Shown here: piece by piece, positions 14,295 through 54,131 of the stretch
Layout: each line of letters opens with the position of its first letter
Position numbering within the stretch: position 1 is the first letter of the stretch
Source of the DNA: Marinobacter nauticus
GTDB lineage: Bacteria; Pseudomonadota; Gammaproteobacteria; Pseudomonadales; Oleiphilaceae
DNA: 64,000 bases
Reading direction: 5' to 3'
Assembly (NCBI RefSeq): GCF_003634635.1
Contig: NZ_RBJB01000003.1
Location: 1 to 64,000 of the forward strand
Notes under the pieces: model-generated
Seen by the model: only the letters and a program-made list of their open reading frames with translations
What the model was told of the DNA's origin: nothing
Database searches by the model: none
Made by a program: the position numbers and the translations under genes

Positions 14295-15782
14295 TTACTG
14301 CAGCAGAGACAGAACCTGCTGAGGACGGGCGTTCGCCTGAGCCAGGACGGAGATACCGGCCTGCTGCAGCACCTGGGCCTTGGACAGCTTGGCTGTCTCA
14401 GCCGCGAAGTCCGCGTCCAGAATCCGGCTCTGAGCGGCGCTCAGGTTGGTGCTGGTGGACTCCAGGTTGGAGATGGTGCTTTCGAAGCGGCTCTGGATCG
14501 CACCAAACTTCGCACGCTGGGAGTTAATGGTGTTCAGCGCCGCGTCTACGGTCTTCAGGGCCTGGGTCGCGCTCTCGAAAGAGGAGATGTCCAGATCAGA
14601 CACCTTGCGCAACTCAGAACCAGTGTCCGCGAAGGCATTAGAGCTTGTGACATCAACCGCGAAGGAGCGATCAGAATCCAGCTGCAGATAGCCACTGGTT
14701 GCCACATCTTCAGCGGTGGTGTCCGCAGTCAGGGTTGCCGCACCACCTGCATCCTGGAGCGCACCCTCGTCATCGCGGAACTGCTTGGTAATAGTCACGT
14801 TACCGGCGTTCTGTACCCCAGTGTCGCCAACCACGATATCCGCACCCGTTTCGTTGGTCAGGACGATGGAGGCACCATCCTCGGCAACTTCTGCGGTGAT
14901 ACCGGTCTTGGAAGACTGGTCATTGATCGCCGCTACCGCAGCAGACAGTGAATCCTGGCCACTGGTTGCGTCAATGGTGAAGGACACAGACTGAGCTTCG
15001 CTGTTGTCCGCAGTCAGATTCAGGGTATAGCTACCAGAAGCTGCAAAGGCCAGATCCACTTCGGTACGGGCCGTGGCGGTTACGCCAGTGTCTGCAGTCT
15101 TGGAGTTAATATCGGCCGCGATATCCTTGGATGTCGCGTTGGCCGCAACGCTGATGGTTTCTGAACCCAGGTAGCCGTTGATGGCCACAGAGCCGGAAGA
15201 CACACCATTCACCGCGCCACCACCAGAAGCGGCTGTGCCAGCTGCTGCACCGCTCGCGATCACCTGGTTGTTACCGTACTTGTCGGTACGCAGGTTGGAG
15301 GTAGAGGCAGAAATAGTTTCGTTGGCGTTGGCACCAACCTGGAACTGGGCGGAGCCGAAAGTACCGTCGAAGAGCTTCTGGCCGTTGAAGTTGGTAGTTG
15401 TTGCAATACGATCCAACTCAGAAACCAACTGGTTTACTTCGTCCTGCAGAGCCTGACGATCAGAGGAAGAGTTGGAAGCGTTAGCAGACTGAACCGCCAG
15501 CTCACGAACACGCTGCAGGATGTTACCTGCCTCGCCCAAGGCACCTTCTGCGGTCTGCGCCAGAGAGATACCGTCGTTGGCGTTACGGGTTGCCTGGTTC
15601 AGACCACGGATCTGAGCTTCGAAGCGGTTGGAAATCGCCAGACCGGCCGCGTCGTCTTTGGCAGAGTTAATGCGCAGACCTGAGGACAAACGCTCCAGAG
15701 CCTGATTGGACTGGTTCTGGGATTTGTTCAGCTGGTTCTGAGCGGACAATGAAGCAACGTTAGTGTTAATACCGAGAGCCAT
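14295..15782 (-). CDS. fliC: Flagellin FliC (sigma-28 type)
   Basis: A 495-residue flagellin. The D0/D1 termini are conserved: [18 protein letters not shown] at the N-terminus, [20 protein letters not shown] in D1, and [20 protein letters not shown] at the C-terminus. The central D2/D3 part contains flagellin-IN type repeats rich in Ser, Thr and Ala, which offer many O-glycosylation sites. It is surface-exposed after type III export and needs FliS. A sigma-28 promoter lies upstream, and a glycosylation operon follows on the same strand further upstream. It is clearly distinct from the second flagellin at 25.3 kb, with divergent centres and a different N-terminal start (MALGI versus MPQII). 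Confidence 0.96.
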
Positions 15783-15932: not shown

Positions 15933-18900
15933 TCAGAATTTAGTCCAGGCATTCAGCCAGAGCGTCAGATTGTCGCCTGACAGCATCCACTTTTCACGCA
16001 CACTCTGCTTGAGCTTGTCACCCGCCCGGGCGGTCGCTTTCATATCCGAAAGATGCATTCGAATAGCATCGACCCAATCCTTGAAGCGGTTCTTTACGAG
16101 CGTGACCGGCAATCCGTGTGCCCGATACGGTTCGACATCGCTGCACACCACAGGATAACCACAGGCCCCGTACTCCAGCAGTCTCAGGTTACTCTTGCAA
16201 CGATTGAACAGGTTGTCTTCCAGCGGCGCTATAGCCAGGTCCAGATTCAAACTGGCCAGCTTTCGCGGATACCGCGAAATCTCGATCCCCTCATGAACCT
16301 CTGCGACAAATGGACGAAGCTTGTCCGGGCACATGCCAAAGAACACCCACTCGACCTCATCAGCCAGTTCCTGCACAACCGCTTCAACCAGTTCGAGGTC
16401 ACCGGTATGCCCCATACCGCCTGCCCAGCCCACCCTGGGCTTTTCGGACTGGCGCCTCAGGCTTTCCAGGTCTCCCCACCACGCCACTGGCAAACGGTTT
16501 TCAACCACCTGGATATCCGGGTGCAATCCGGAAAATGCCTCTGCCAGCGGGTAAGTTGAAACAACAAACCGATCCACATGCTTCAAGGAACGACGCAAGG
16601 ACTTCAATATATCCTTTGGCATGTTTTCCCGGTACGCACTTTTGATCGGCAAATTCGGTAAATAGTCGTCGAGTTCGAAGACTGTCGGCTTCTTCAGTAT
16701 CCGACGGGCTGATTGCATGTGCTCCACAGCCTGATCGGTGATCTGTCGCTGATACACCAGGACATCGGGATCCAACCGGGCCATTTCAGCAATGTTAAGC
16801 CAGTCAAAGTCCGCCATGCCGCCCGCGACGGCTTCTTCTTTCATGGCCCGTAACGGCTGCATGATCCGGTAGTGACCACAGCCCCAGGGATCCGCAGGGT
16901 GAGCAAGAATGGTGGAGAGTCCAAGGGCCTTCTGGGGCTGCCAGTTCAGCTCCACACGATGATCCACCTCAAATCCATTCGCTCTCAACGACAGGTTTCT
17001 GTTGAAAGCAGGGTCGTTGCCCATGTAGGGCAACCAGCGTTGAAACATCGCTTCCTGCTCTTTCTGGAAGCGACGAACCTTGTTCTCGTCGGCTGTTTTA
17101 TCGACCGAGGTCTGACTGGCATTGGCAACATGCATCACCAGCGCATGGGGGGTCCAAACGCTCAGATAACCCGCCTGAGCCACCTTCAGACAGAAATCGA
17201 TATCGTTGTAGGAGACGGCAAAGGCCTCCTCGTCCAATCCACCGACCTGCTCGTAAACTGATTTTCTGACCAGCATGCAGGCGCCAGTCACAGCCGAGTA
17301 ATTCTGGTCGACCATGAGTCGGTTCATATAACCGGGGTCATTGGCCTCTGCATCAATACAAATGTGCTCAGCCGGCCCCCGCATGCCCACGACAACGCCA
17401 GCGTGTTGAACCTTGCCGTTGGGGAACAACAACTTGGCGCCAACAATGCCCACTTCCGGTCTTTGAGCATGGTTCATCAAGGCGTCGAGCCAGTCCTCTT
17501 TTATGATTCCTGTGTCGTTATTGAGCAGCAGAACGTAGTCTCCCTGGCTTTGCGTTACCGCAAAATTGTTGATTGCCGAGAAATTAAAGGGCTTCGGGTA
17601 ACGAAGCACGCGAAGGTTGGGCAGTCCCATACTGTTGAGGCCATCAAGCCATGTGCGCGCTTCAGGCGTTTCGCTGTTGTTGTCCACCACCAGAATTTCG
17701 TAATTCGGGTAGGCGGTCTTTTCGAGAATAGATTCCACACAGGTTTGCAGCAGATGTAGCTGGTCCTTGGTAGGAATAATAATCGAGACAGGGGGCGCGC
17801 CGGCATGGGGATAGCGAACCCGCAGACTGCTTGAGGTCAAGCCCGGCTCAATTCCGGCACCAGCATACCCTCGGCGTTCCAGATGACTTCGGATCACTGG
17901 TACGTATGCAGCCAGGTCGAACGTCTGCGTACCCGCGTGCAGCAGAAACAGGGGCTCGTCGGTACGACCGATACAACCGAATCCCCGCTCTTCTATAAGG
18001 CGCAGGATGTAACCCAGCTCAAAAGCACTGTCATCGTTTTTGCTGAACCCACCAAGCTCGACCAGCGTTTCCCGGCGAAACAGCCAATGCCTGGACATAT
18101 CGGCCGGTGAACTGAGCAACATATCGAGGTTCAGGCCTGGTCGGAAATAGCCGCTTTCGGTCTTGCCATTGTTTTCGACCAGTTCGTCACCATAAGCGGC
18201 ATCCAGCGCTGCACCAGAAGACTCAAGCTCAGCCAACAACAACACCAGGCCCGCCGGGGTCAACTCGGAAGGCGTTCTGGCCACCACCAACCAGTCACTC
18301 TTGAGATCAGAGGCAGCCGCTCCGTTAAGCACCGAGATCAGGTCTGAACGGTCGTATTCGGCAAAGGAAACGTCCTGAAACAGCTCCTTCCGGTAGAACG
18401 ACTCATCCGGGGTGAGCACCAGACACGACAGTGAGGGGCAGTAGTAGCGTGCGATCCTGAATGCCAGTACAGAAATATTAAGGTTGTAATTCTCCGGCTT
18501 TTCATCGATCAGAACCAGGCACAGGGATTGTCGTGCCGCGGTTGTCTCCAGACGTTTGGCCAGAGGAATGGACAACTCACGCTGCCCGTACCAGTTATCG
18601 AGACTTATCACGCCGCCTGGGCGACCACACTCTTCGGTACGTCGCTCGAGGTCGGAAAAGGACATCAAACCAGCGTCATCAATACCTCCGGCTTTTTGGT
18701 AAAAGCCCTTGAAATCGACTTTCTGGAAGTTGCTGTTTTGATCCCAAAGAGGTTTGGCCTGAACCTGCCCTTCCGGTTTGATCTCCCCGCCCAGCATTGC
18801 GTCCAACTGGGCCAGGAAGGCTTTGCGGCCATTTTCACCGAGTGTCTGAGCGCTTGCGTGGCGTTGATTCTGACCAGCGTGAATACGGAAACAGGATAAA

Positions 18901-19556
18901 TGCTCCTGCACGTACCCAAGATCACCCACCATCAACAACCGGGCATAAACAGCCAGGTCGTTGACCGATGTGATCAGGCGATTGTTCAGGGCGCTCAAAT
19001 GGGGATACGCGCCCAGCAGGTCTCTTCGGCGAACCATGATAGTGCTGGGCTCACCAATGAAATTGATTGGAAACACCCGGAAAAACTCGAGCACGTCTTT
19101 GCCAAGTAACCGTGCGTCTTCGCGGACCGGCATAAGGTTAAAGAGCCGATCCTGAAGCGCATTGCCGGAGTCATCAATCAGCTTCCGCCGTGAGGTGGCC
19201 AGAATAACGCCCGGCTGCTCCAGCGCCGACCTGAGTCTGACCACGCAGTTTTCCGCCAGCACGTCATCGTCGTTGAGGAACTTGATGTAGTGCCCACGGC
19301 TGAGGCGAACGCCGTAATCCATTCCGACAAGGCCACCCAACTGTGTTGCGGACTTGATGTAGCGGATGCGAGCGTCATCATAACCAGTGACGACATCAGC
19401 CACCGAGTTATCAGCACAGTCATCCATCACCAGGATTTCGAAGTCCTCAACGTCTTTCTGAGCGTAGATGGAATCAATGGCCTCTCGCAGAAACCTGGCC
19501 TTGAAAGCCGTGATGATAAAACTTACGGCCAGGGTTTCGTTTTGCTGATCTGTCAT
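15933..19556 (-). CDS. Multidomain glycosyltransferase, probable flagellin glycosyltransferase
   Basis: A 1207-residue cytosolic protein with several glycosyltransferase modules. A GT2 GT-A domain occupies about 10-230 (VSFIITAFKARFLREAIDSI, metal site NDDD at 95-98). A weaker GT-A-like region is at about 345-545. A second clear GT2 domain is at about 588-810 (PPVSIIIPTKDQL, NND at 679-681). A GT-B-like domain follows at 880-1207 (STILAHPADPWGCGHYRIMQP). Very large multidomain transferases next to fliC include Pseudomonas FgtA, which glycosylates flagellin; by position and build this is the likely functional counterpart. It is last in the operon and overlaps the upstream methyltransferase stop by ATGA. 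Acceptor and sugar order are inferences. Confidence 0.85.
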   Translation of the reverse strand: MTDQQNETLAVSFIITAFKARFLREAIDSIYAQKDVEDFEILVMDDCADNSVADVVTGYDDARIRYIKSATQLGGLVGMDYGVRLSRGHYIKFLNDDDVLAENCVVRLRSALEQPGVILATSRRKLIDDSGNALQDRLFNLMPVREDARLLGKDVLEFFRVFPINFIGEPSTIMVRRRDLLGAYPHLSALNNRLITSVNDLAVYARLLMVGDLGYVQEHLSCFRIHAGQNQRHASAQTLGENGRKAFLAQLDAMLGGEIKPEGQVQAKPLWDQNSNFQKVDFKGFYQKAGGIDDAGLMSFSDLERRTEECGRPGGVISLDNWYGQRELSIPLAKRLETTAARQSLCLVLIDEKPENYNLNISVLAFRIARYYCPSLSCLVLTPDESFYRKELFQDVSFAEYDRSDLISVLNGAAASDLKSDWLVVARTPSELTPAGLVLLLAELESSGAALDAAYGDELVENNGKTESGYFRPGLNLDMLLSSPADMSRHWLFRRETLVELGGFSKNDDSAFELGYILRLIEERGFGCIGRTDEPLFLLHAGTQTFDLAAYVPVIRSHLERRGYAGAGIEPGLTSSSLRVRYPHAGAPPVSIIIPTKDQLHLLQTCVESILEKTAYPNYEILVVDNNSETPEARTWLDGLNSMGLPNLRVLRYPKPFNFSAINNFAVTQSQGDYVLLLNNDTGIIKEDWLDALMNHAQRPEVGIVGAKLLFPNGKVQHAGVVVGMRGPAEHICIDAEANDPGYMNRLMVDQNYSAVTGACMLVRKSVYEQVGGLDEEAFAVSYNDIDFCLKVAQAGYLSVWTPHALVMHVANASQTSVDKTADENKVRRFQKEQEAMFQRWLPYMGNDPAFNRNLSLRANGFEVDHRVELNWQPQKALGLSTILAHPADPWGCGHYRIMQPLRAMKEEAVAGGMADFDWLNIAEMARLDPDVLVYQRQITDQAVEHMQSARRILKKPTVFELDDYLPNLPIKSAYRENMPKDILKSLRRSLKHVDRFVVSTYPLAEAFSGLHPDIQVVENRLPVAWWGDLESLRRQSEKPRVGWAGGMGHTGDLELVEAVVQELADEVEWVFFGMCPDKLRPFVAEVHEGIEISRYPRKLASLNLDLAIAPLEDNLFNRCKSNLRLLEYGACGYPVVCSDVEPYRAHGLPVTLVKNRFKDWVDAIRMHLSDMKATARAGDKLKQSVREKWMLSGDNLTLWLNAWTKF

Positions 19557-20608
19557 TGGTCACTCTTTTCGGGTTTGGTTACAACGTAAAGAACGCTTTC
19601 TTTTTTCAGGCCAAGCGACTGGTAAACGGCAGCACCAAAATACCCGACATCCAGCAGTTGCAACCTGAACCCCGCGTTCTGTACCCGGGAGACATAGCCC
19701 GCCCGGTTATACAGACGAACATGATCGCCCTGACCAAAGCGCCGCCACCTCTCGGCTTCCCGCTCCTCAGCCGGGTCCTCATCAATCTCGTCAAGGTCAC
19801 AGATAATCGGCACCATCAACAGCGCACTGCAACCCGGCCTCAGAACGCGAAACAACTCTGACAATGCTTTGGCATCGTCCTGAACATGCTCCAGAACATG
19901 ACTGCACACGAAAAAGTCCAGGCTGTTCGCATCAAAAGGCAGGTCCATCAGATCCACCCTGTGATCCACTCCCTGCATGGCGAAATCGGCCGTCTGGTAA
20001 TCGGCGAAGCCAATCTGTTTTAACCAGCGAGAGAAACCCGGTTCCGGCGCGAAATGCATGACACTGGCATCACGGGACAATTCGCCTCGACATAAAAGGG
20101 CAGACAGCCAGTACGCATAAAGACGCTCCCGGTCCGACGCACCGCAAGACGCACAGGTATAGGAATCGTGGGCTGTCATTTCGCCCTGACCAAAATATTT
20201 GAAGCCATTGTCCTCGGCATGCTTCCGGTAGAACTCCGGAAGCGCACGGAAACCCTGGTTAACGGCATTACACAGGGGGCAATAGGTTTGAGATAGGTGA
20301 CGCGCAATCACCTGCTCCGGCGGAATCACCGGTGCTTTAGCTCCGCCACGCTCCTTCATGACTTCAACCAGGTTGTCGAGGATCAGGCGAGACGTGTTTG
20401 CCTGCAACTCTGACGCTTCTCGGAACCTATTGATGGCTGATTCGAAGTCACCATGTTTGAACTGCGCCACCGCGATGTCATTTGACAACGCATCGTAGCT
20501 TCCGATGACCGACTCAACCTGCAAAAGAAGTTCTGCAGCGCGCTTATAGTTGCCAGCTCCGAACTCGCTGTAGGCGCTGGCCTTCAATTGTTCTATTTCA
20601 GCGCTCAT
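19553..20608 (-). CDS. TPR and zinc-ribbon SAM-dependent methyltransferase
   Basis: A 351-residue protein with about 80 N-terminal residues of TPR-like helices (EFGAGNYKRAAELLLQVESV), a zinc-ribbon-like pair CPLC/CASC (about 116-163), and a class I methyltransferase domain. The methyltransferase part shows DLMDLPFDANSLDFFVCSHV and EHVQDDAKALSELFRVLRPG. Its place between sugar-modifying enzymes and the large glycosyltransferase suggests methylation of a glycan or of the growing saccharide; the substrate is unknown. Linked to the glycosyltransferase by a 4-bp overlap. Confidence 0.8.
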   Translation of the reverse strand: MSAEIEQLKASAYSEFGAGNYKRAAELLLQVESVIGSYDALSNDIAVAQFKHGDFESAINRFREASELQANTSRLILDNLVEVMKERGGAKAPVIPPEQVIARHLSQTYCPLCNAVNQGFRALPEFYRKHAEDNGFKYFGQGEMTAHDSYTCASCGASDRERLYAYWLSALLCRGELSRDASVMHFAPEPGFSRWLKQIGFADYQTADFAMQGVDHRVDLMDLPFDANSLDFFVCSHVLEHVQDDAKALSELFRVLRPGCSALLMVPIICDLDEIDEDPAEEREAERWRRFGQGDHVRLYNRAGYVSRVQNAGFRLQLLDVGYFGAAVYQSLGLKKESVLYVVTKPEKSDQ

Positions 20609-20636: not shown

Positions 20637-21290
20637 CTATGACCAGCCAAGGGAATTTGCCAGATAATCCAGAACCGTTCCGGCCTGTGCTTCCGAATAC
20701 CGACCGTTGCAAGTGACAAACACCGGTACCTGTTTGCGAACACCGTAACTGCTACGAACGTTGCGGGCTCTCTCCGCGAGCTCGTCAGAGTTAAACAGTA
20801 ACACCGCGCCACCGTGCCTTGTTGGTAACTCCAGCAGGACTGGCTCAGGAAAGCCATCGGAAATCCCCTGTTCCGGGCGGGCGCTCGACCAGTCCGGATA
20901 ATGGACGACAAGCTGTTGCTGGCCCTGACCAACCGATGCACAGTTCAAGCCGCGTTCCTCCCTGAGTGTCCGATACAGGACATCGGTGTCCTGAACAACA
21001 CTGTCGGTAGTATCCAGAGCATGAACCGAAAGACCACTGAACGCCCCTACGTGTACCAGGCACGGATCTTCATCCCCGGGGTAATAGACCAGGCGTGAAT
21101 GCTGCCTTGTTCGCAACGCAATCAGGGCCACCAGAAGTCCCAGCTCCAGGCTTCCGACCAACACCGCGTGTCGGGCTCCCATGTGTTCTTCCAGTGTCTG
21201 CTCCAGTGCACGGGCAAGAGGCCCATGGTTCGTAAAATAGCGGTTGGCCAGAATATCGGAAACCACTTTACGGGCATTGTATTCAGCCAT
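20637..21290 (-). CDS. Degenerate half-length DegT-like aminotransferase homologue
   Basis: A 217-residue protein that resembles only the large domain of DegT/DnrJ/EryC1/StrS aminotransferases. The start (NRYFTNHGPLARALEQTLEE, HAVLVGSLELGLLVALI) and the part after the catalytic lysine (GGAVLLFNSDELAERARNVR) align by eye with neighbouring full-length members. The SxHA(S/T)K segment is replaced by LELPTRHGG, so the PLP-binding lysine is absent, and the C-terminal small domain is missing. Start chosen at MAEYNARK, which has GGGAG 5 nt upstream and overlaps the preceding aminotransferase stop by 8 bp. It may be a non-catalytic partner of that enzyme, or a decaying gene with an intact frame. Confidence 0.65.
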   Translation of the reverse strand: MAEYNARKVVSDILANRYFTNHGPLARALEQTLEEHMGARHAVLVGSLELGLLVALIALRTRQHSRLVYYPGDEDPCLVHVGAFSGLSVHALDTTDSVVQDTDVLYRTLREERGLNCASVGQGQQQLVVHYPDWSSARPEQGISDGFPEPVLLELPTRHGGAVLLFNSDELAERARNVRSSYGVRKQVPVFVTCNGRYSEAQAGTVLDYLANSLGWS

Positions 21291-22425
21291 CACAACTCCC
21301 GGGGACATCCGATAGTAGAGACTTGATCATGGCGACGACATGCGTCACATCCGCTTCAGAGACTCTGAAGCCACAGGGTAGATTGAGCAATGCCCGGGCA
21401 GCACGTTCGGTTGCGGGAAGGGGCTCCGGGCACAAAACCGGGTACTCATGGCTTTTGATATGGAGCGGCGGTGAATAGTGGGCCCGGGCCAGAACGCCAG
21501 CCTGATTCAGATTCCGCACAATGCGGTCTCTCTCTTCCCCGCTCACGCCTGGAACCTCAACAACAATATTTTTGAATGACGTTTGCTGAGCCTCATCAAA
21601 CGCGACAAGCCGAATACCGCCAACCCCTTTGAGCTCTCTTTGATACGCCCGGTAAATCTTGCGGTTGTGGCGGACGTTTTCTTCTATTTCGTCCAGTCCG
21701 GCAAGGGCAAAAGCAGCATGGATATCGGGCATGTCCGAAGCGAGCCAGTGCCCGGGTTTCAGACGTCGGGCGTTACTGCTGTCGCGGGATCTGAAATCAC
21801 GAAGCCTGCCTGCATAGGCGCTGTCGTTCACACACACGTAGCCCCCCTCCAGTCCATTGATCAGCTTGCTCGCGTGCAACGAGAACACCTCGGGCACATC
21901 AAAAGACCCTACGCGTTTTCCCTGCCAGGTTTCGTGAACGGACTCCACGGCATCGATGACCATTGGCACGGCATATTTCGCTGCAATCTCTGTCAGTCGC
22001 GAAACATCGCAACAATTCACGATGGGATGAACCGCAAGGATGGCTGCGGTGTTTGACCCAATAGCCCGCTCAACTGACTCGGGAGAGATAGCCAGCGTGG
22101 ACTCATCAATGTCCACGAAACGGGGAACCTTACCGGCCCAGAACACAACATCGGCCAGCCGGCGGTAGGTAAACGACGGGATAATGACCTCTGGAGCATC
22201 AAGGGCACTTAACCGCAAGCTCGCCACCAATGACCAGAAACCCGTGGACATGGCCACGCAGTGTTCAGCCTGATGGTACTCACAGAGACGTTTCTCAAGT
22301 AACGACACTAACCAACCCGGACGACTCTCCCCACCGTTTTCAAGCCACTGATCTATATACCTTAGAATGCGCTCTTTCTCAGGCTCGTAAAGGTTGGATG
22401 TTGAGAGAAAGCCTGTCGAAGACAT
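21283..22425 (-). CDS. DegT/DnrJ/EryC1/StrS aminotransferase
   Basis: A 380-residue PLP-dependent sugar aminotransferase. The lysine that forms the Schiff base lies in SLHASKLINGLEGGYV and the aspartate contacting PLP in MVIDAVESVHE. The usual GNPCD-type segment reads HPIVNCCDVSR, which may reflect an unusual sugar substrate. Translation is coupled to the methyltransferase gene upstream (TGATG) and to the degenerate homologue downstream. It belongs to the flagellin sugar operon; the keto-sugar it acts on cannot be named from sequence. Confidence 0.85.
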   Translation of the reverse strand: MSSTGFLSTSNLYEPEKERILRYIDQWLENGGESRPGWLVSLLEKRLCEYHQAEHCVAMSTGFWSLVASLRLSALDAPEVIIPSFTYRRLADVVFWAGKVPRFVDIDESTLAISPESVERAIGSNTAAILAVHPIVNCCDVSRLTEIAAKYAVPMVIDAVESVHETWQGKRVGSFDVPEVFSLHASKLINGLEGGYVCVNDSAYAGRLRDFRSRDSSNARRLKPGHWLASDMPDIHAAFALAGLDEIEENVRHNRKIYRAYQRELKGVGGIRLVAFDEAQQTSFKNIVVEVPGVSGEERDRIVRNLNQAGVLARAHYSPPLHIKSHEYPVLCPEPLPATERAARALLNLPCGFRVSEADVTHVVAMIKSLLSDVPGSCDG

Positions 22426-23126
22426 CAGACTGGCCTCGTCATAAGCACATCAAATCGGTAGCCGGCGCCGTAGAAATCATTCGGCATCGTCATGATGTCT
22501 ACGTTAAAACCGCATGCTTCGCCCAGGGCAACGAACTCGTCCGCGCTCCACCAGACCCCAATCGGCGACTTCGGGTCGTCCAACCGGTAATCCGCGACAT
22601 TGCGCCGCTGGAAGAAATCGGCCGCCTTCGTTTTATCCGGTACATTGCCGATAAAGATTCGCTCACAGGCGCTGTACTGACTCCAGATGGTCTTCAACAG
22701 CGTGCTCACTGAGTCAGCGGAAAGATAAGAGATCACGCCGTAGACGAGCACCCGCGTAATTCGGGAAGCCTCAGTAAACTCAAGGGTCGCCTCTACCGCA
22801 TCCCCACAATAGAAATGCGTTTTGCCCGGTATCGAAAAAAACTCCCGGGCCACACCAACCAGGTACTCCGAAAAATCTACGCCATGGTATTCTGATATCG
22901 AATCAAACAGATAGCTGGCCAGCGCGGCGTTTCCACATCCCAGGTCCAGGAGAACCTCGCCTGGCCGAAACTGTAGTGCCCCCGATATCTGATCCACGAT
23001 CATCCGAATATCCTGCTCACTGACAGGCTTGCCATTCACCGTCCGCTTGATCTGTTGCCAGAACGCGTCGCGATCAAACTGTTTCGGGTATTCCTTGTGC
23101 AGATAATCGTCACTCATCACTGACAC
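22425..23126 (-). CDS. Class I SAM-dependent methyltransferase
   Basis: A 233-residue methyltransferase with motif I VLLDLGCGNAALASYLFD and the acidic strand end GVDFSEYLV. It directly abuts the WbqC-like gene upstream and shares TGATG with the aminotransferase gene downstream, so it is part of one tightly packed operon. Context suggests N- or O-methylation of a flagellin sugar or of an amino-sugar substituent. The substrate is unknown. Confidence 0.8.
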   Translation of the reverse strand: MSVMSDDYLHKEYPKQFDRDAFWQQIKRTVNGKPVSEQDIRMIVDQISGALQFRPGEVLLDLGCGNAALASYLFDSISEYHGVDFSEYLVGVAREFFSIPGKTHFYCGDAVEATLEFTEASRITRVLVYGVISYLSADSVSTLLKTIWSQYSACERIFIGNVPDKTKAADFFQRRNVADYRLDDPKSPIGVWWSADEFVALGEACGFNVDIMTMPNDFYGAGYRFDVLMTRPV

Positions 23127-23846
23127 TCAGGCTGGGTGGAGGGTGAAGTCGTTCAGCAATATGTCTTGCAGCGTCCCCTCATCACACCACATCAAGGCGT
23201 CGAGGATGGACAGGTTCGGAACGTAATCGTAGCCATTCTGAACGTACGGGCGAATAGTCGATTCCATAAAGGAGAGACCAATGCCCGCCTCACGGAACTG
23301 TGCAGGGTCAAACAGAGCCTGCCCCCCCATTGGGTTAATGTAGTGCTCCGCCCCCATGGCCTTGGCGATCTTGAGCGCCCACTCCCCGGAATGGGCGACC
23401 TGATCGATCCCCAGGTCCAGCTCAGAATACACCAGGATCTTTGTATTGATGCCAAGATGATCAGCCAGTACCCGGAGACTGTGGGTCAGAAATCTGGACA
23501 GGACAGCGTTGGGCGCCCCGATGGCTGATTCAAAAACCGACATGGTTTTCCGATAGTTCGGCGCGCGACGATAATGAACCAGCTTACCTGTGAGGCTTTT
23601 ACGCCAGTCACTGCTGTCGTCAATCTCAATGTCATCAATGAAATCGAAACGCCCCCTTTTGCTCAGGGGTACGGTGATGTACTGCCACCCTTTCTCCGGA
23701 TTGGGGTGCAAAACACGATTGCGATTGACCCACCCCTTGTTCACAAACTGGCAATGATCAAACACAACCCAGGTGTCCGCGTGCGCCATCAACTGAAAAT
23801 AGCCCGGATACGGAAAGAAATAGGGTTGCATAACCGCCAGTTTCAT
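23127..23846 (-). CDS. WbqC-like family protein
   Basis: A 239-residue member of the WbqC family, recognisable from MKLAVMQPYFFPYPGYFQL at the start and HCQFVNKGWVNRNRV (about 31-45). The family occurs in O-antigen and flagellar glycan clusters next to amino-sugar aminotransferases. It is thought to help add acyl groups to amino sugars, but its biochemistry is poorly defined. It overlaps the VioA-like gene by 4 bp and abuts the methyltransferase gene. Confidence 0.85.
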   Translation of the reverse strand: MKLAVMQPYFFPYPGYFQLMAHADTWVVFDHCQFVNKGWVNRNRVLHPNPEKGWQYITVPLSKRGRFDFIDDIEIDDSSDWRKSLTGKLVHYRRAPNYRKTMSVFESAIGAPNAVLSRFLTHSLRVLADHLGINTKILVYSELDLGIDQVAHSGEWALKIAKAMGAEHYINPMGGQALFDPAQFREAGIGLSFMESTIRPYVQNGYDYVPNLSILDALMWCDEGTLQDILLNDFTLHPA

Positions 23847-24976
23847 TGCCCGCGTCCTGAAGCCCCATGATGGCCATTGGCGGCTTCACGGAGACAGCTT
23901 ATGATTCGGCCAAAATCCTCATCATTGAGGTCGCTATAGATTGGCAGACAAAGAATTCGCTGGGCGGTATCTGCGGCATTTTCGAACACCGCCGAAGGGT
24001 CAAAGTACATTGGAAAATCGGAGACCAGCGGATAGAAATAGCGGCGTACCAGAATCCCCTGCTTTCGGAATTCAGAATAAAGGTCATCCCTGGACAGTGG
24101 GAAGCTCTCATTTACCAGAACCGGACAGTAGGAGTAATTCCACTCAGTGTCGACCGGCTCTTCCATCAGTTGCAGGCCTTCAATACCCATGAGTTCCTCA
24201 CGATATTTCCGGTACACACTCTGCCGGGCCCGAATGTCGGAATCAATTTTCTCAAGCTGTAACAAGCCCAACGCTGCCTGGAACTCGTTCATCTTGCCGT
24301 TAATACCCGGGGCGACCACCGTGGTCTCGTTGGCAAAACCGAAGTTCTTCAGGTAATCGACCCGCTGCTTCGTTTTCTTGTCCTTGAGTATCAGCGCCCC
24401 ACCCTCGAAGGTGTTGAACACCTTGGTGGCGTGAAAGCTGAGCACGGAAATATCACCAGCCTCCAGTAGGCTCCGGCCCCTGTATCTGACTGCAAACGCA
24501 TGGGCCGCATCATAGATAACGTGCAACCCGTAGAGATCGGCGATTCGCTGGATTTCATCAATATTTGCAGGAGTCCCATAGCAGTGTACGGGGAGTATGG
24601 CTGTGGTCTCCGGGGTTATCGCGGCTTCAATTTTTGAGGCGTCGAGGTTAAAGCTATCCGGCTCGATATCCACGAAAACAGGCTTGAGCTTGTTCCATAA
24701 CAAAGCATGGGGCGTCGCCGCGAAGGTATAGGGCGTGGTAATCACCTCCCCGGTAACGCGCATCGCCTGCAAAGCAGTAACCAGAGCAATCGTGCCGTTA
24801 GTGAACAGGGACAGATGTTCGACCCCCAGATACTCGCAAAGGCGGGCTTCCAGTTCCTCATGAAAGCGCCCACCGTTGGTTAACCGCCCGCTTTTCCAGA
24901 TTTCCTCCAAAAGAGGCTGCAGCTTTTCAAGATCAGGAAGGCTGGGCCGGGTAACGGTAATCAGGTCATCAGCCAC
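23843..24976 (-). CDS. VioA-like dTDP-4-keto-6-deoxyglucose aminotransferase
   Basis: A 377-residue DegT-family aminotransferase with the PLP lysine in SFHATKVFNTFEGGAL, the PLP aspartate in VIYDAAHAFAV, and the block LSLFTNGTIALVTALQA. It resembles the VioA/FdtB/QdtB group, which converts dTDP-4-keto-6-deoxy sugars to amino sugars such as viosamine. The nearby rfbA and rfbB supply dTDP-4-keto-6-deoxyglucose. It starts with GTG, preceded by GAGGA. First gene of the six-gene minus-strand operon that ends with the large glycosyltransferase, and divergent from the second flagellin. Exact product not provable here. Confidence 0.82.
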   Translation of the reverse strand: MADDLITVTRPSLPDLEKLQPLLEEIWKSGRLTNGGRFHEELEARLCEYLGVEHLSLFTNGTIALVTALQAMRVTGEVITTPYTFAATPHALLWNKLKPVFVDIEPDSFNLDASKIEAAITPETTAILPVHCYGTPANIDEIQRIADLYGLHVIYDAAHAFAVRYRGRSLLEAGDISVLSFHATKVFNTFEGGALILKDKKTKQRVDYLKNFGFANETTVVAPGINGKMNEFQAALGLLQLEKIDSDIRARQSVYRKYREELMGIEGLQLMEEPVDTEWNYSYCPVLVNESFPLSRDDLYSEFRKQGILVRRYFYPLVSDFPMYFDPSAVFENAADTAQRILCLPIYSDLNDEDFGRIISCLREAANGHHGASGRGQ

Positions 24977-25303: not shown

Positions 25304-26797
25304 ATGCCTCAGATCATCAACACCAACATCGCGTCGCTGAACGCTCAACGCAACCTGAACGCCTCTCAGCAGGACGCAAACACAACACTTCAGCGCTTGT
25401 CCTCAGGTTTGCGAATTAATTCAGCAAAAGACGATGCGGCCGGGCTGGCAATTGCGGAACGCTTTACCTCGCAAGTAAAAGGCCTGAACCAGGCGGTACG
25501 AAACTCCAATGACGGTGTCTCGCTCGCTCAAGTAGCTGAGGGCGCGCTGGGGGAATCTGGCAACATCCTTCAACGGATGAGAGAACTGGCCGTGCAGGCT
25601 GCGAACGCCACCAACTCTGCGTCAGACAGAAAAGCTCTGCAGGCCGAGGTGAATCAGCTCAAACAGGAGCTTGAGCGGATTGCAACCACCACAGAGTTCA
25701 ACGGCCTTAAACTTCTCGACGGAACGTTCCAGGCTCAGAAATTCCAGGCCGGTGCCAACGAAAACCAGACCATTTCTGTGTCGATCACCGGTACCAGAAT
25801 CGACACTTTGGCAAACAACACGGTCGAGACCATCGCCAGCGGTAGCTCCACGGGCTCTATCACCGTAGCCTCAGGTGGCACGGCACCCGCACTGAATGCG
25901 ATACAGCCTCAGGATATTACGATTTCCAGTTCGCTTGATGAGCAGACGGTAAACATCACAGCGTCTGGTGCGACAGCAGAATCTATTGCAGCGGAAATCA
26001 ACAAAGCCGCCGAAACAACCGGTGTCTCCGCGAGCGCCCGCACCAGCGTTGAGCTATCCAACCTGAGCGCAAGCGGCACCGTGACAATGAGCCTGTCGAC
26101 TGGCGACGGCAACGATGCAACTATCTCCGCCCAGATATCCGACGTCAACGACCTTGAGCCATTAGCCCGCGAGATCAACGCCAGCAGTGGCAAAACCGGC
26201 ATTACGGCCGAAGTGGATGGCGGAACCATCAAGCTCATCCAGGAAAGCGGTAAAGACGTTGTCATTGAAGGCTTTACCAGCAATGGAGCTGGCTCGCCGA
26301 CCATGGATCTGACCGGCTCCTCCCAGGCGACAGCCCAGTTGGCCACAGGCGGTAACGACAGCGCCCGGATAGCTGGTGAGATAAACTTTGACTCCGCTTC
26401 CAGCTTTGCCGTTTCCTCTACGGTGGCCGGTGGTGCAGGCGGCATTTTCGCAACCACAGACACCTTTGGCTCCGACCCGGAAAAAGTAGCCGACATCGAC
26501 ATCAGTACTTTCGAGGGCGCCAGCAGTGCGATGAGAGTGCTCGACTCTGCATTGGAAACCATTAACGGAATCCGCGCAGACCTGGGTGCAGTGCAGAACC
26601 GGCTGGAATCGACCATCGCCAACCTGAGCACCACGTCAGAGAATCTCTCTGCAGCTCGCTCCCGGATCCAGGATGCCGACTTCGCGGCGGAGTCTGCGAA
26701 CCTTGCCAGAACCCAGGTTCTCCAGCAGGCCGGCCTCTCAGTTCTGGCTCAGGCCAACGCCCGCCCCCAGCAGGTACTTCAGCTGCTGCAGGGCTAA
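25304..26797 (+). CDS. Second flagellin (sigma-54 type)
   Basis: A 497-residue flagellin on the opposite strand from fliC. Terminal D0/D1 regions are intact: MPQIINTNIASLNAQRNL, LQRMRELAVQAANATNSASD, and [20 protein letters not shown] near the end. The centre carries flagellin-IN type segments (QDITISSSLDEQTVNI) and is rich in Ser/Thr. AGGGAGA precedes the ATG. Apart from the terminal segments it differs strongly from FliC, so it is a paralogue rather than a recent duplicate. With its sigma-54 type promoter it may be made earlier, and form a different part of the filament, than FliC. A strong terminator follows. Confidence 0.95.
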   Translation: MPQIINTNIASLNAQRNLNASQQDANTTLQRLSSGLRINSAKDDAAGLAIAERFTSQVKGLNQAVRNSNDGVSLAQVAEGALGESGNILQRMRELAVQAANATNSASDRKALQAEVNQLKQELERIATTTEFNGLKLLDGTFQAQKFQAGANENQTISVSITGTRIDTLANNTVETIASGSSTGSITVASGGTAPALNAIQPQDITISSSLDEQTVNITASGATAESIAAEINKAAETTGVSASARTSVELSNLSASGTVTMSLSTGDGNDATISAQISDVNDLEPLAREINASSGKTGITAEVDGGTIKLIQESGKDVVIEGFTSNGAGSPTMDLTGSSQATAQLATGGNDSARIAGEINFDSASSFAVSSTVAGGAGGIFATTDTFGSDPEKVADIDISTFEGASSAMRVLDSALETINGIRADLGAVQNRLESTIANLSTTSENLSAARSRIQDADFAAESANLARTQVLQQAGLSVLAQANARPQQVLQLLQG

Positions 26798-52967: not shown

Positions 52968-54131
52968 TCACTCTCCCGCCAGAGCCACTCGGAGTGCCTC
53001 AACTACTTCGTCTTGCTGATCATCGGTTAATCCCTGAAACATAGGGAGGCTGATCGCTTCGCGGTAGTAAGCCATTGATTGAGGAAACGCTTCAGCCTCA
53101 AAGCCCATGGACTCATAAAATGGCTGCGTATGTACCGGAATGTAGTGCAGATTGACCCCAATTCCCTGTTCCCGCAAAGACTCGAACACCTCCCGGTGAG
53201 TTCGGGAAATGACATCCAGCTTTAGGCGGACAACGTAGAGGTGAAGTCCAGAATAGCTGTCTGGATGCTGCCAGGGCAATACAACAGGCAAATCGCTCAA
53301 CAGTCTATCGTATCTTTTTGCCAACTGATGCCGGCGGGCCACAAAAGCATCAAGCCGGTCCATTTGGCTAACGCCGAGCGCCGCCTGTAGCTCGGTCATC
53401 CGGTAGTTGAAACCCAAGTCCACCTGCTGGTAGTACCAGGGGCCGTCTGGCTCACGCGTCATCAAGGCGGGGTCTCGGGTAACACCATGACTACGGAGCA
53501 GGTTCATTTTTTCCGCCAGCTCTGCGCTATTGGTTATGGCCATACCACCTTCAGCCGTAGTCACGATCTTCACCGGATGGAAACTGAAGACGGTTATATC
53601 GCTATACCGACAACTGCCAATGAATTCGCCCTGATACTTACCGCCAATTGCATGGGAGGCGTCTTCGATCAGCTTGAAACCATACTCTTTCGCCAAGCCG
53701 TCGATCGCTTGCATATCGCAAGGTTGGCCGCACAAATGAACGGCCACTACCACTTTGGGCAATCGGTTTGACTGCTTTGCCGACTCAAGCTTCGCCTTCA
53801 ACGCCTCTGGACAAAGGTTGTAGGTTTTGGGATCGATGTCGACAAAATCCACATTTGCGCCGCAATACAAACCGCAGTTAGCAGACGCCACGAAAGTCAC
53901 GGGGGTCGTCCATAGCCAGTCGCCTTTACCAAGGCCCAATGCCAGGCAGGCGATGTGCAACGCGGACGTCGCACTATTCACCGCCAGAGCGTGGCTGGCG
54001 CCGACGTGGCTTGCCACGGCCTGCTCAAACCTGGGTACCATTGGGCCCTGAGTCAGAAAGTCTGACTCCAAAACGCCCAAAACCGCATCAATATCGGCTT
54101 GGCTAATATCCTGTTTTCCGTAGGGAATCAT
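52968..54131 (-). CDS. pseC: UDP-4-keto-6-deoxy-AltNAc aminotransferase
   Basis: A 387-residue DegT-family aminotransferase using PLP and glutamate in step two of pseudaminate synthesis. IPYGKQDISQADIDAVLGVL is the PseC N-terminal signature, and the PLP lysine lies in FSFHPVKIVTTAEGG. Full length, unlike the degenerate homologue at 20.6 kb. It sits 3 bp after the pseB stop. Confidence 0.94.
   Translation of the reverse strand: MIPYGKQDISQADIDAVLGVLESDFLTQGPMVPRFEQAVASHVGASHALAVNSATSALHIACLALGLGKGDWLWTTPVTFVASANCGLYCGANVDFVDIDPKTYNLCPEALKAKLESAKQSNRLPKVVVAVHLCGQPCDMQAIDGLAKEYGFKLIEDASHAIGGKYQGEFIGSCRYSDITVFSFHPVKIVTTAEGGMAITNSAELAEKMNLLRSHGVTRDPALMTREPDGPWYYQQVDLGFNYRMTELQAALGVSQMDRLDAFVARRHQLAKRYDRLLSDLPVVLPWQHPDSYSGLHLYVVRLKLDVISRTHREVFESLREQGIGVNLHYIPVHTQPFYESMGFEAEAFPQSMAYYREAISLPMFQGLTDDQQDEVVEALRVALAGE

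Follow-up and report, generated by a model that had tools for sequence, protein, structure and literature searches.

Enzymes in which a lysine-less homologue pairs with a catalytic chain and helps form the active site are known from serine palmitoyltransferase (LCB1/LCB2) and glycine decarboxylase (GcvPA/GcvPB). Both pairs belong to fold-type-I PLP subfamilies other than DegT, and their lysine-less subunit keeps its small domain. In aspartate aminotransferase, Arg292* is a residue that acts from the other subunit.

Within the DegT family, we used the sugar aminotransferase Spr1654, for which a structure is solved, as the reference. The excerpts of its paper that we consulted place PLP at the subunit interface and describe the two subunits as indispensable to the active sites (PMC5936713). 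The same excerpts mark Gly28*, Ile30*, Gln234*, and Tyr249* as residues of the second subunit, and give no such mark to Asp170, Ser194, Lys199, Glu205, His344-Tyr345, or Lys257 (PMC5936713). They also state that Lys257 is asparagine in 3DR7, that the sequence of the flexible region is not conserved among sugar aminotransferases, and that the uracil contacts of Gly28 and Ile30 are made partly through the backbone (PMC5936713). Side chains at these two positions therefore need not be conserved. In a described flagellin island, the viosamine island of Pseudomonas syringae, which also includes the acyl genes vioS, vioR, vioB, and acp, VioA (a DegT aminotransferase), a methyltransferase, and the giant glycosyltransferase VioT (1,173 amino acids) act on flagellin, according to the portion of that account available (PMC3927599).

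We analyzed a stretch of 64,000 nucleotides from Marinobacter nauticus (the window) in which the gene for a half-size DegT homologue (the half) overlaps that for a full-length one (the full). Unlike LCB1/LCB2 and GcvPA/GcvPB, the lysine-less half is cut to the large domain, and the full lacks the matching trans motifs, those expected to act from the other subunit. Spr1654, in the excerpts cited above, forms a homodimer in which each chain carries both motif sets (PMC5936713), whereas in the Marinobacter pair the sets are split over two genes. The motif losses described below make it quite probable that the full and the half form an obligate heterodimeric DegT-type enzyme with a single composite active site, the product of a flagellin-glycosylation island. 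The features of the pair are:

20637..21290, minus strand: half-size DegT homologue, a putative pseudo-subunit of 217 amino acids counted from its ATG; trans segments kept, no counterpart of the PLP Lys, Asp, or Ser, no small domain
21283..22425, minus strand: full-length DegT protein of 380 amino acids; Lys187, Asp158, Ser182, and His316-Tyr317 kept, trans segments replaced
21283..21290, minus strand: 8-bp overlap of the two genes, ATGGCTGA, with GGGAG five bases before the ATG of the half
21213..21239, minus strand: trans segment 1 of the half, YFTNHGPLA, residues 18-26 (coordinates computed by hand from residue numbers)
20679..20723, minus strand: trans segment 3 of the half, residues 190-204, VFVTCNGRYSEAQAG, invariant in three clades (coordinates computed by hand)

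The gene for the half is intact and its product lacks the catalytic lysine. The initial annotation had described an intact frame with a ribosome site and an 8-bp overlap, and a product with neither PLP lysine nor small domain. All of this was borne out: there was no internal stop in the 217 codons, and no lysine at the PLP position in any of the five halves that we compared. A non-conserved lysine at residue 154, near that position, was present in one orthologue, from M. fuscus. An alternative in-frame ATG upstream would give a protein of 223 amino acids, but the orthologues align from the 217-residue start. The overlap and the GGGAG site suggest that translation of the full and the half is likely coupled.

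Both proteins match most closely the DesI/VioA-type dTDP-4-keto-6-deoxyhexose 4-aminotransferases (PF01041). The full scored 232.4 bits against Pfam DegT_DnrJ_EryC1 (PF01041; cut-off 19.8, E 1.2e-68, residues 17-367) and aligned to DesI over its whole length (PDB 2po3, E 3.3e-41). Its score against the DesI equivalog TIGR04427 was 219.3 bits, under the curated cut-off of 650 bits, and by these sequence matches it is DesI-like and not DesI. K187 and D158, the PLP lysine and aspartate, were present in all five fulls, and His316-Tyr317 was replaced by Tyr-Tyr in one of them. The half scored 28.4 bits against the same Pfam family (cut-off 19.8, E 1.2e-6) over residues 7-63 only, and its best match was DesI, at residues 12-55. 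When the halves were compared, profile to profile, with fulls and VioA-like proteins aligned together, the result was Prob 84.5 and E 7e-6. With no PLP lysine in any of the five, the half is best described as a derived DegT homologue that is not itself an aminotransferase. A tree with the half and the full as one clade was not rejected (p-AU 0.288, from 112 columns with long branches).

The half is predicted to have a fold-type-I large domain. AlphaFold2 with DegT rows in the alignment gave a model of medium confidence (pLDDT 64.7, pTM 0.68), for which the best Foldseek matches were DegT aminotransferases (E 2.0e-9). In VIA-align 2, the model matched DegT large domains with Z 17.0 (rmsd 4.8, 201 residues aligned), and other fold-type-I enzymes trailed by Z 1-2. 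With an alignment of halves only, the model was weaker (pLDDT 60.1, pTM 0.63); a DegT protein was still the first match (E 5.7e-6), but with TM of about 0.5 and rmsd >10. These single-chain models argue against an unrelated fold, at medium confidence. The large-domain outline noticed earlier can be recognized by sequence in the N- and C-terminal parts of the half; the catalytic middle is not recognizable. The middle is 20 residues shorter (137 residues from G23 to G160 versus 157 from G37 to G194 in the full) and diverges fast: only 15 of the 94 residues from 61 to 154 were invariant across three clades. Around CNGRYSE, in trans segment 3, all 15 of 15 residues were invariant across the three clades.

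The full and the half have lost complementary parts of the DegT active site. We aligned 45 sequences: the five fulls, the five halves, and 35 other DegT proteins from the loci, a non-random set drawn from the hits to the half and the full and from other DegT genes in the loci. The PLP lysine was present in all 35 other DegT proteins, and the PLP Lys, Asp, and Ser in 34/34 of the set reduced by one near-identical sequence and in 5/5 fulls. The fulls retain [FI]DAVESV and SLHASK...LEGG. We found no counterpart of the lysine, the PLP aspartate, or the phosphate serine in any of the five halves aligned with the 35 other DegT proteins. The trans motifs are replaced in all five fulls, save for the loop Gly: GGxxxPGxLV stands where the commonest sequence of the family is WLTNxGPxV, and [AP]S[DE]MPD where the family has N-x-[KR]-M-x-E. 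The halves retain YFTNHGPL, SYG, and CNGR[YF]SEAQAG.

Counts in single columns followed the same division. The N of N-x-K/R was N in 32/35 others (31/34 in the reduced set), P or A in all five fulls, and N in all five halves. At the K/R position, 33/35 others (32/34 in the reduced set) had K or R and two had N; the fulls had D or E (5/5) and the halves R (5/5). The Gly of the F/Y-G pair was G in 33/34 others and 5/5 halves, and D or K in 5/5 fulls. The hydrophobic residue of the N-terminal loop was L, F, I, V, or Y in 34/34 others, H or E in the fulls, and F in the halves. Two positions ran against the pattern: the Gly of the N-terminal loop was present in fulls and halves alike, and the Gly two positions ahead of the N was G in 34/34 others and in the fulls but Thr in the halves. 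The N-terminal loop varies among the other DegT proteins as well (P in 21/34, T in 22/34).

Segment scores gave a similar picture, with exceptions. We built a profile from the 34 others and set the scores of the fulls and halves against leave-one-out values for these 34. The profile matched the fulls end to end, and the halves only at columns 17-75 (14.8-36.1 bits) and, weakly and at permissive thresholds, 189-248 (4.8-10.2 bits). At the N-terminal trans segment, the fulls scored below 34/34 others and the halves were mid-range; at the F/Y-G segment, the fulls again fell below all 34 and the halves were in the lower third. At the N-x-K/R segment the fulls were below 34/34 others and the halves were also below all 34, because their flanks have changed (TC and Y/F for GI and M) while N, R, S, and E are unchanged. 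In the Asp and Lys segments, the fulls were at the low end of the range (1/34 at or below the best full), and the halves were unaligned or negative. Because the profile leaves the halves unaligned there, their per-column values in the Asp and Lys stretches are approximate, and the GG of the halves lies one column off relative to A4 in the alignment. The absence of the lysine from the halves is independent of alignment placement.

We placed the Spr1654 residues by counting rather than by residue alignment, backward from Thr59 and forward from Lys199, using the insertions given in the paper and the 3BN1 alignment. By this count, Gly28 and Ile30 correspond to the G and L/I that open the G-W-L-T-N-G-P segment, Gln234 lies on the F/Y-G pair or adjacent to it, and Lys257 falls on the N column. 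From the flanks of this column and by analogy with Arg292* of aspartate aminotransferase, we infer that the Lys257 position acts in trans. The positive charges in the flexible loop that would be expected from the available excerpts were not constant in the halves (PMC5936713).

The sites of DegT homodimers draw residues from both chains, so we read the split motif sets as a shared active site. In the proposed heterodimer, the full would hold PLP with Lys187, Asp158, Ser182, His184, Glu193, and the small-domain His316-Tyr317. The half would dock in place of the second large domain, and its YFTNHGP loop, SYG, and CNGRYSE would supply residues that reach the nucleotide sugar and the amino donor from the far side of the interface. 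The reciprocal site, with the half on the cis side and the full on the trans side, would be dead on both sides. A dimer of full and half would then have a single complete site beside this dead one, and dimers of two fulls or of two halves would have no complete site. On this reading, what is left of the pseudo-subunit, 217 residues, is what the interface and the trans residues require. As to origin, it is fairly probable that a DegT enzyme was split after duplication by complementary degeneration into a cofactor-holding subunit and a single-domain, 217-residue substrate-clasp subunit, so that a symmetric homodimer with two sites became an asymmetric heterodimer with one.

The half might instead be a regulatory or stabilizing subunit that binds the full and gives no active-site residues, with the full using its own altered residues. 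We consider this unlikely. Linkage and purifying selection (see below) fit any partner, and the small domain and PLP lysine are still in the full, but such a role does not account for the presence of substrate-facing trans motifs among the best-conserved residues of the half, or for the divergence of the full from the family at those motifs, with charge reversal. The initial annotation had suggested a regulatory or heterodimer partner; a partner role is supported, and the complementary loss of active-site segments points to completion of the site, more than to regulation alone, as what the partner does.

The phosphate loop bears on a different alternative. This loop, a cis feature, is atypical in fulls and halves alike. 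In the fulls, the NGT of the family is replaced by TGF and the segment scores below 34/34 others, and because the family loop is lost, the PLP cradle of the full is unusual. The F of TGF was shared with one of the 35 other DegT proteins (L053). A changed loop is what a new specificity might need, and parts of the replaced segments are invariant in the five fulls (G31, G32, P36, G37, S230, M232, P233, and D234). Both observations would fit a full that acts alone as a homodimeric DegT enzyme with changed chemistry or substrate, leaving the half a separate job such as binding the nucleotide sugar or an island enzyme. We regard this as improbable, given that the half keeps the interface motifs, that its gene overlaps or directly follows that of the full, and that no genome was found to carry it without the full.

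The proposed heterodimer fits the distribution of the pair. Halves were found in 5/124 genomes of the genus, and fulls (E<=1e-40) in the same five of 120. The five intact pairs, in the same order, are those of the window, M. fuscus (L010), M. salexigens (L011), M. xestospongiae (L012), and one further genome (G130), and each half overlaps or directly follows an orthologous full gene. Genomes G122, G155, and G020 seem to be of the same species as the first three of these, the window not counted (same profile scores). The adjacent methyltransferase gene was present in the same 5/124 genomes, with one distant match of 29% in another (G012). Beyond the genome of the window, no half was found in 369 sampled genomes of the class or in 369 of the phylum (both E<=1e-8). 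The nine hits in 390 genomes of the order (E<=1e-6) were seven N-terminal stretches of open frames of 377-488 amino acids and two known halves. Plasmid records gave no match to the half, viral contigs contained no relative, and a scan of genome contigs, limited to close relatives, gave three Marinobacter loci. All of these draws are samples, with overlap among them.

Both the half and the full are under purifying selection. In two close comparisons, omega was 0.32 and 0.27 for the half, above that of neighboring genes, and 0.18 and 0.17 for the full. Set against a neutral simulation, the half had 16 changed codons in the first comparison versus 26.3 expected (0/2000 as low), and 13 versus 19.0 in the second (p 0.0055). 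That the half is a decaying duplicate not yet lost is very improbable: its omega of 0.27-0.32 exceeds that of its neighbors and its middle diverges fast, but the five distinct halves, down to 48% identity, carry no stop or frameshift and keep invariant motifs, and non-synonymous changes were fewer than under neutrality in both simulations. The half had been taken for a kept pseudo-enzyme rather than debris, with random stops or relaxed selection in its homologues as the contrary sign; we found neither, although its omega is above that of the full. Because the half is intact beside an orthologous full in 5/5 genomes that hold it and is under purifying selection, we reject debris, and the predicted large domain agrees with a kept protein. 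Weighing against the heterodimer are the phosphate-loop change in the full, the loop Gly kept in the fulls and the variability of that loop in the other DegT proteins, the low segment-3 score of the halves, the poor conservation of the flexible region in the family and its inconstant positive charges in the halves, the lack of a second-subunit mark on Lys257, the medium confidence of the half model, weaker still with halves alone, the higher omega of the half, and the Tyr-Tyr in one of the five fulls.

A lysine-less PLP-fold partner that completes a site is already known; what would be new is a single-domain partner together with a mirror-image loss in the catalytic chain. Among the matches listed in searches of a limited library (titles and abstract openings), there was no report of a DegT heterodimer or a DegT pseudo-subunit. 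If the proposal is true, the pair is a clean natural case, legible from sequence alone, in which two homologues have each lost the part of a shared active site that the other retains, and single-residue changes could directly test the contribution of each subunit in sugar aminotransferases. Annotation might then take the half for a truncated gene and see an ordinary aminotransferase in the full, though neither would work alone.

The pair lies in an island bordered by two flagellin genes:

14295..15782, minus strand: flagellin at the left end of the island, identified from its translation
15933..19556, minus strand: multi-domain glycosyltransferase of 1207 amino acids, with two GT2 stretches and a C-terminal group-1-like one
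19553..20608, minus strand: TPR and methyltransferase protein, missing from this place next to the pair in M. fuscus
22425..23126, minus strand: SAM-dependent methyltransferase, adjoining the pair in all five genomes
23127..23846, minus strand: WbqC-family protein, from a family search
23843..24976, minus strand: VioA/DesI-like DegT aminotransferase, an ordinary one with both motif sets in one chain, which serves as an internal contrast
25304..26797, plus strand: second flagellin, at the right end of the island, likewise identified from its translation

Read on the minus strand from the right flagellin, the order is VioA/DesI-like DegT, WbqC, methyltransferase, full, half, TPR-methyltransferase, and 1207-residue glycosyltransferase. 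Past the right flagellin are dTDP-sugar genes for an RmlC-type epimerase, RmlA, and RmlD. From its place, the large protein is probably the flagellin glycosyltransferase. The VioA-like DegT protein was set aside as a partner of the half because it keeps both motif sets in one chain.

The island resembles the P. syringae viosamine island in its DegT aminotransferase, methyltransferase, giant glycosyltransferase, and flagellin, and in the available portion of that account we found neither a half/full DegT pair nor a WbqC protein (PMC3927599). The likeness to DesI and VioA and the island setting suggest that the likeliest use of the pair is amination of a dTDP-sugar for the flagellin glycan; the product would probably be an amino sugar, made on a dTDP-hexose, for flagellin glycosylation. 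The neighboring VioA-like enzyme may already make a 4-amino sugar.

The island seems to swap decoration modules. A two-flagellin island in another genome (L067; G012:C1:204000-218000) has no half/full pair; by eye, its genes encode a VioA-like protein, a WbqC-like protein, a TPR-methyltransferase, a second methyltransferase, a sulfotransferase-like protein, and a giant glycosyltransferase. Because this island exists without the pair, the methyltransferase-full-half unit looks like an island accessory. The M. fuscus locus (L010, 6688-10236) is near-identical around the pair, but has no TPR-methyltransferase gene there, and its 1182-residue glycosyltransferase has a different N-terminal region, as if exchanged by recombination.

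The WbqC-family protein of the window (23127-23846, minus strand) had no NCBIfam match at E<=0.01, and by eye its gene recurs in other island loci (L010, L011, L012, L015, L016, and L067). About 28 kb from the pair, the window also encodes a PseC equivalog, a pseudaminic-acid-type aminotransferase (52989-54110, minus strand; 557 bits, cut-off 423.5). Beside a flagellin-like gene in another genome (L032, G794:C1) is a DesI-like DegT protein that has both motif sets in one chain and is 33% identical to the full; it is possibly an unsplit relative.
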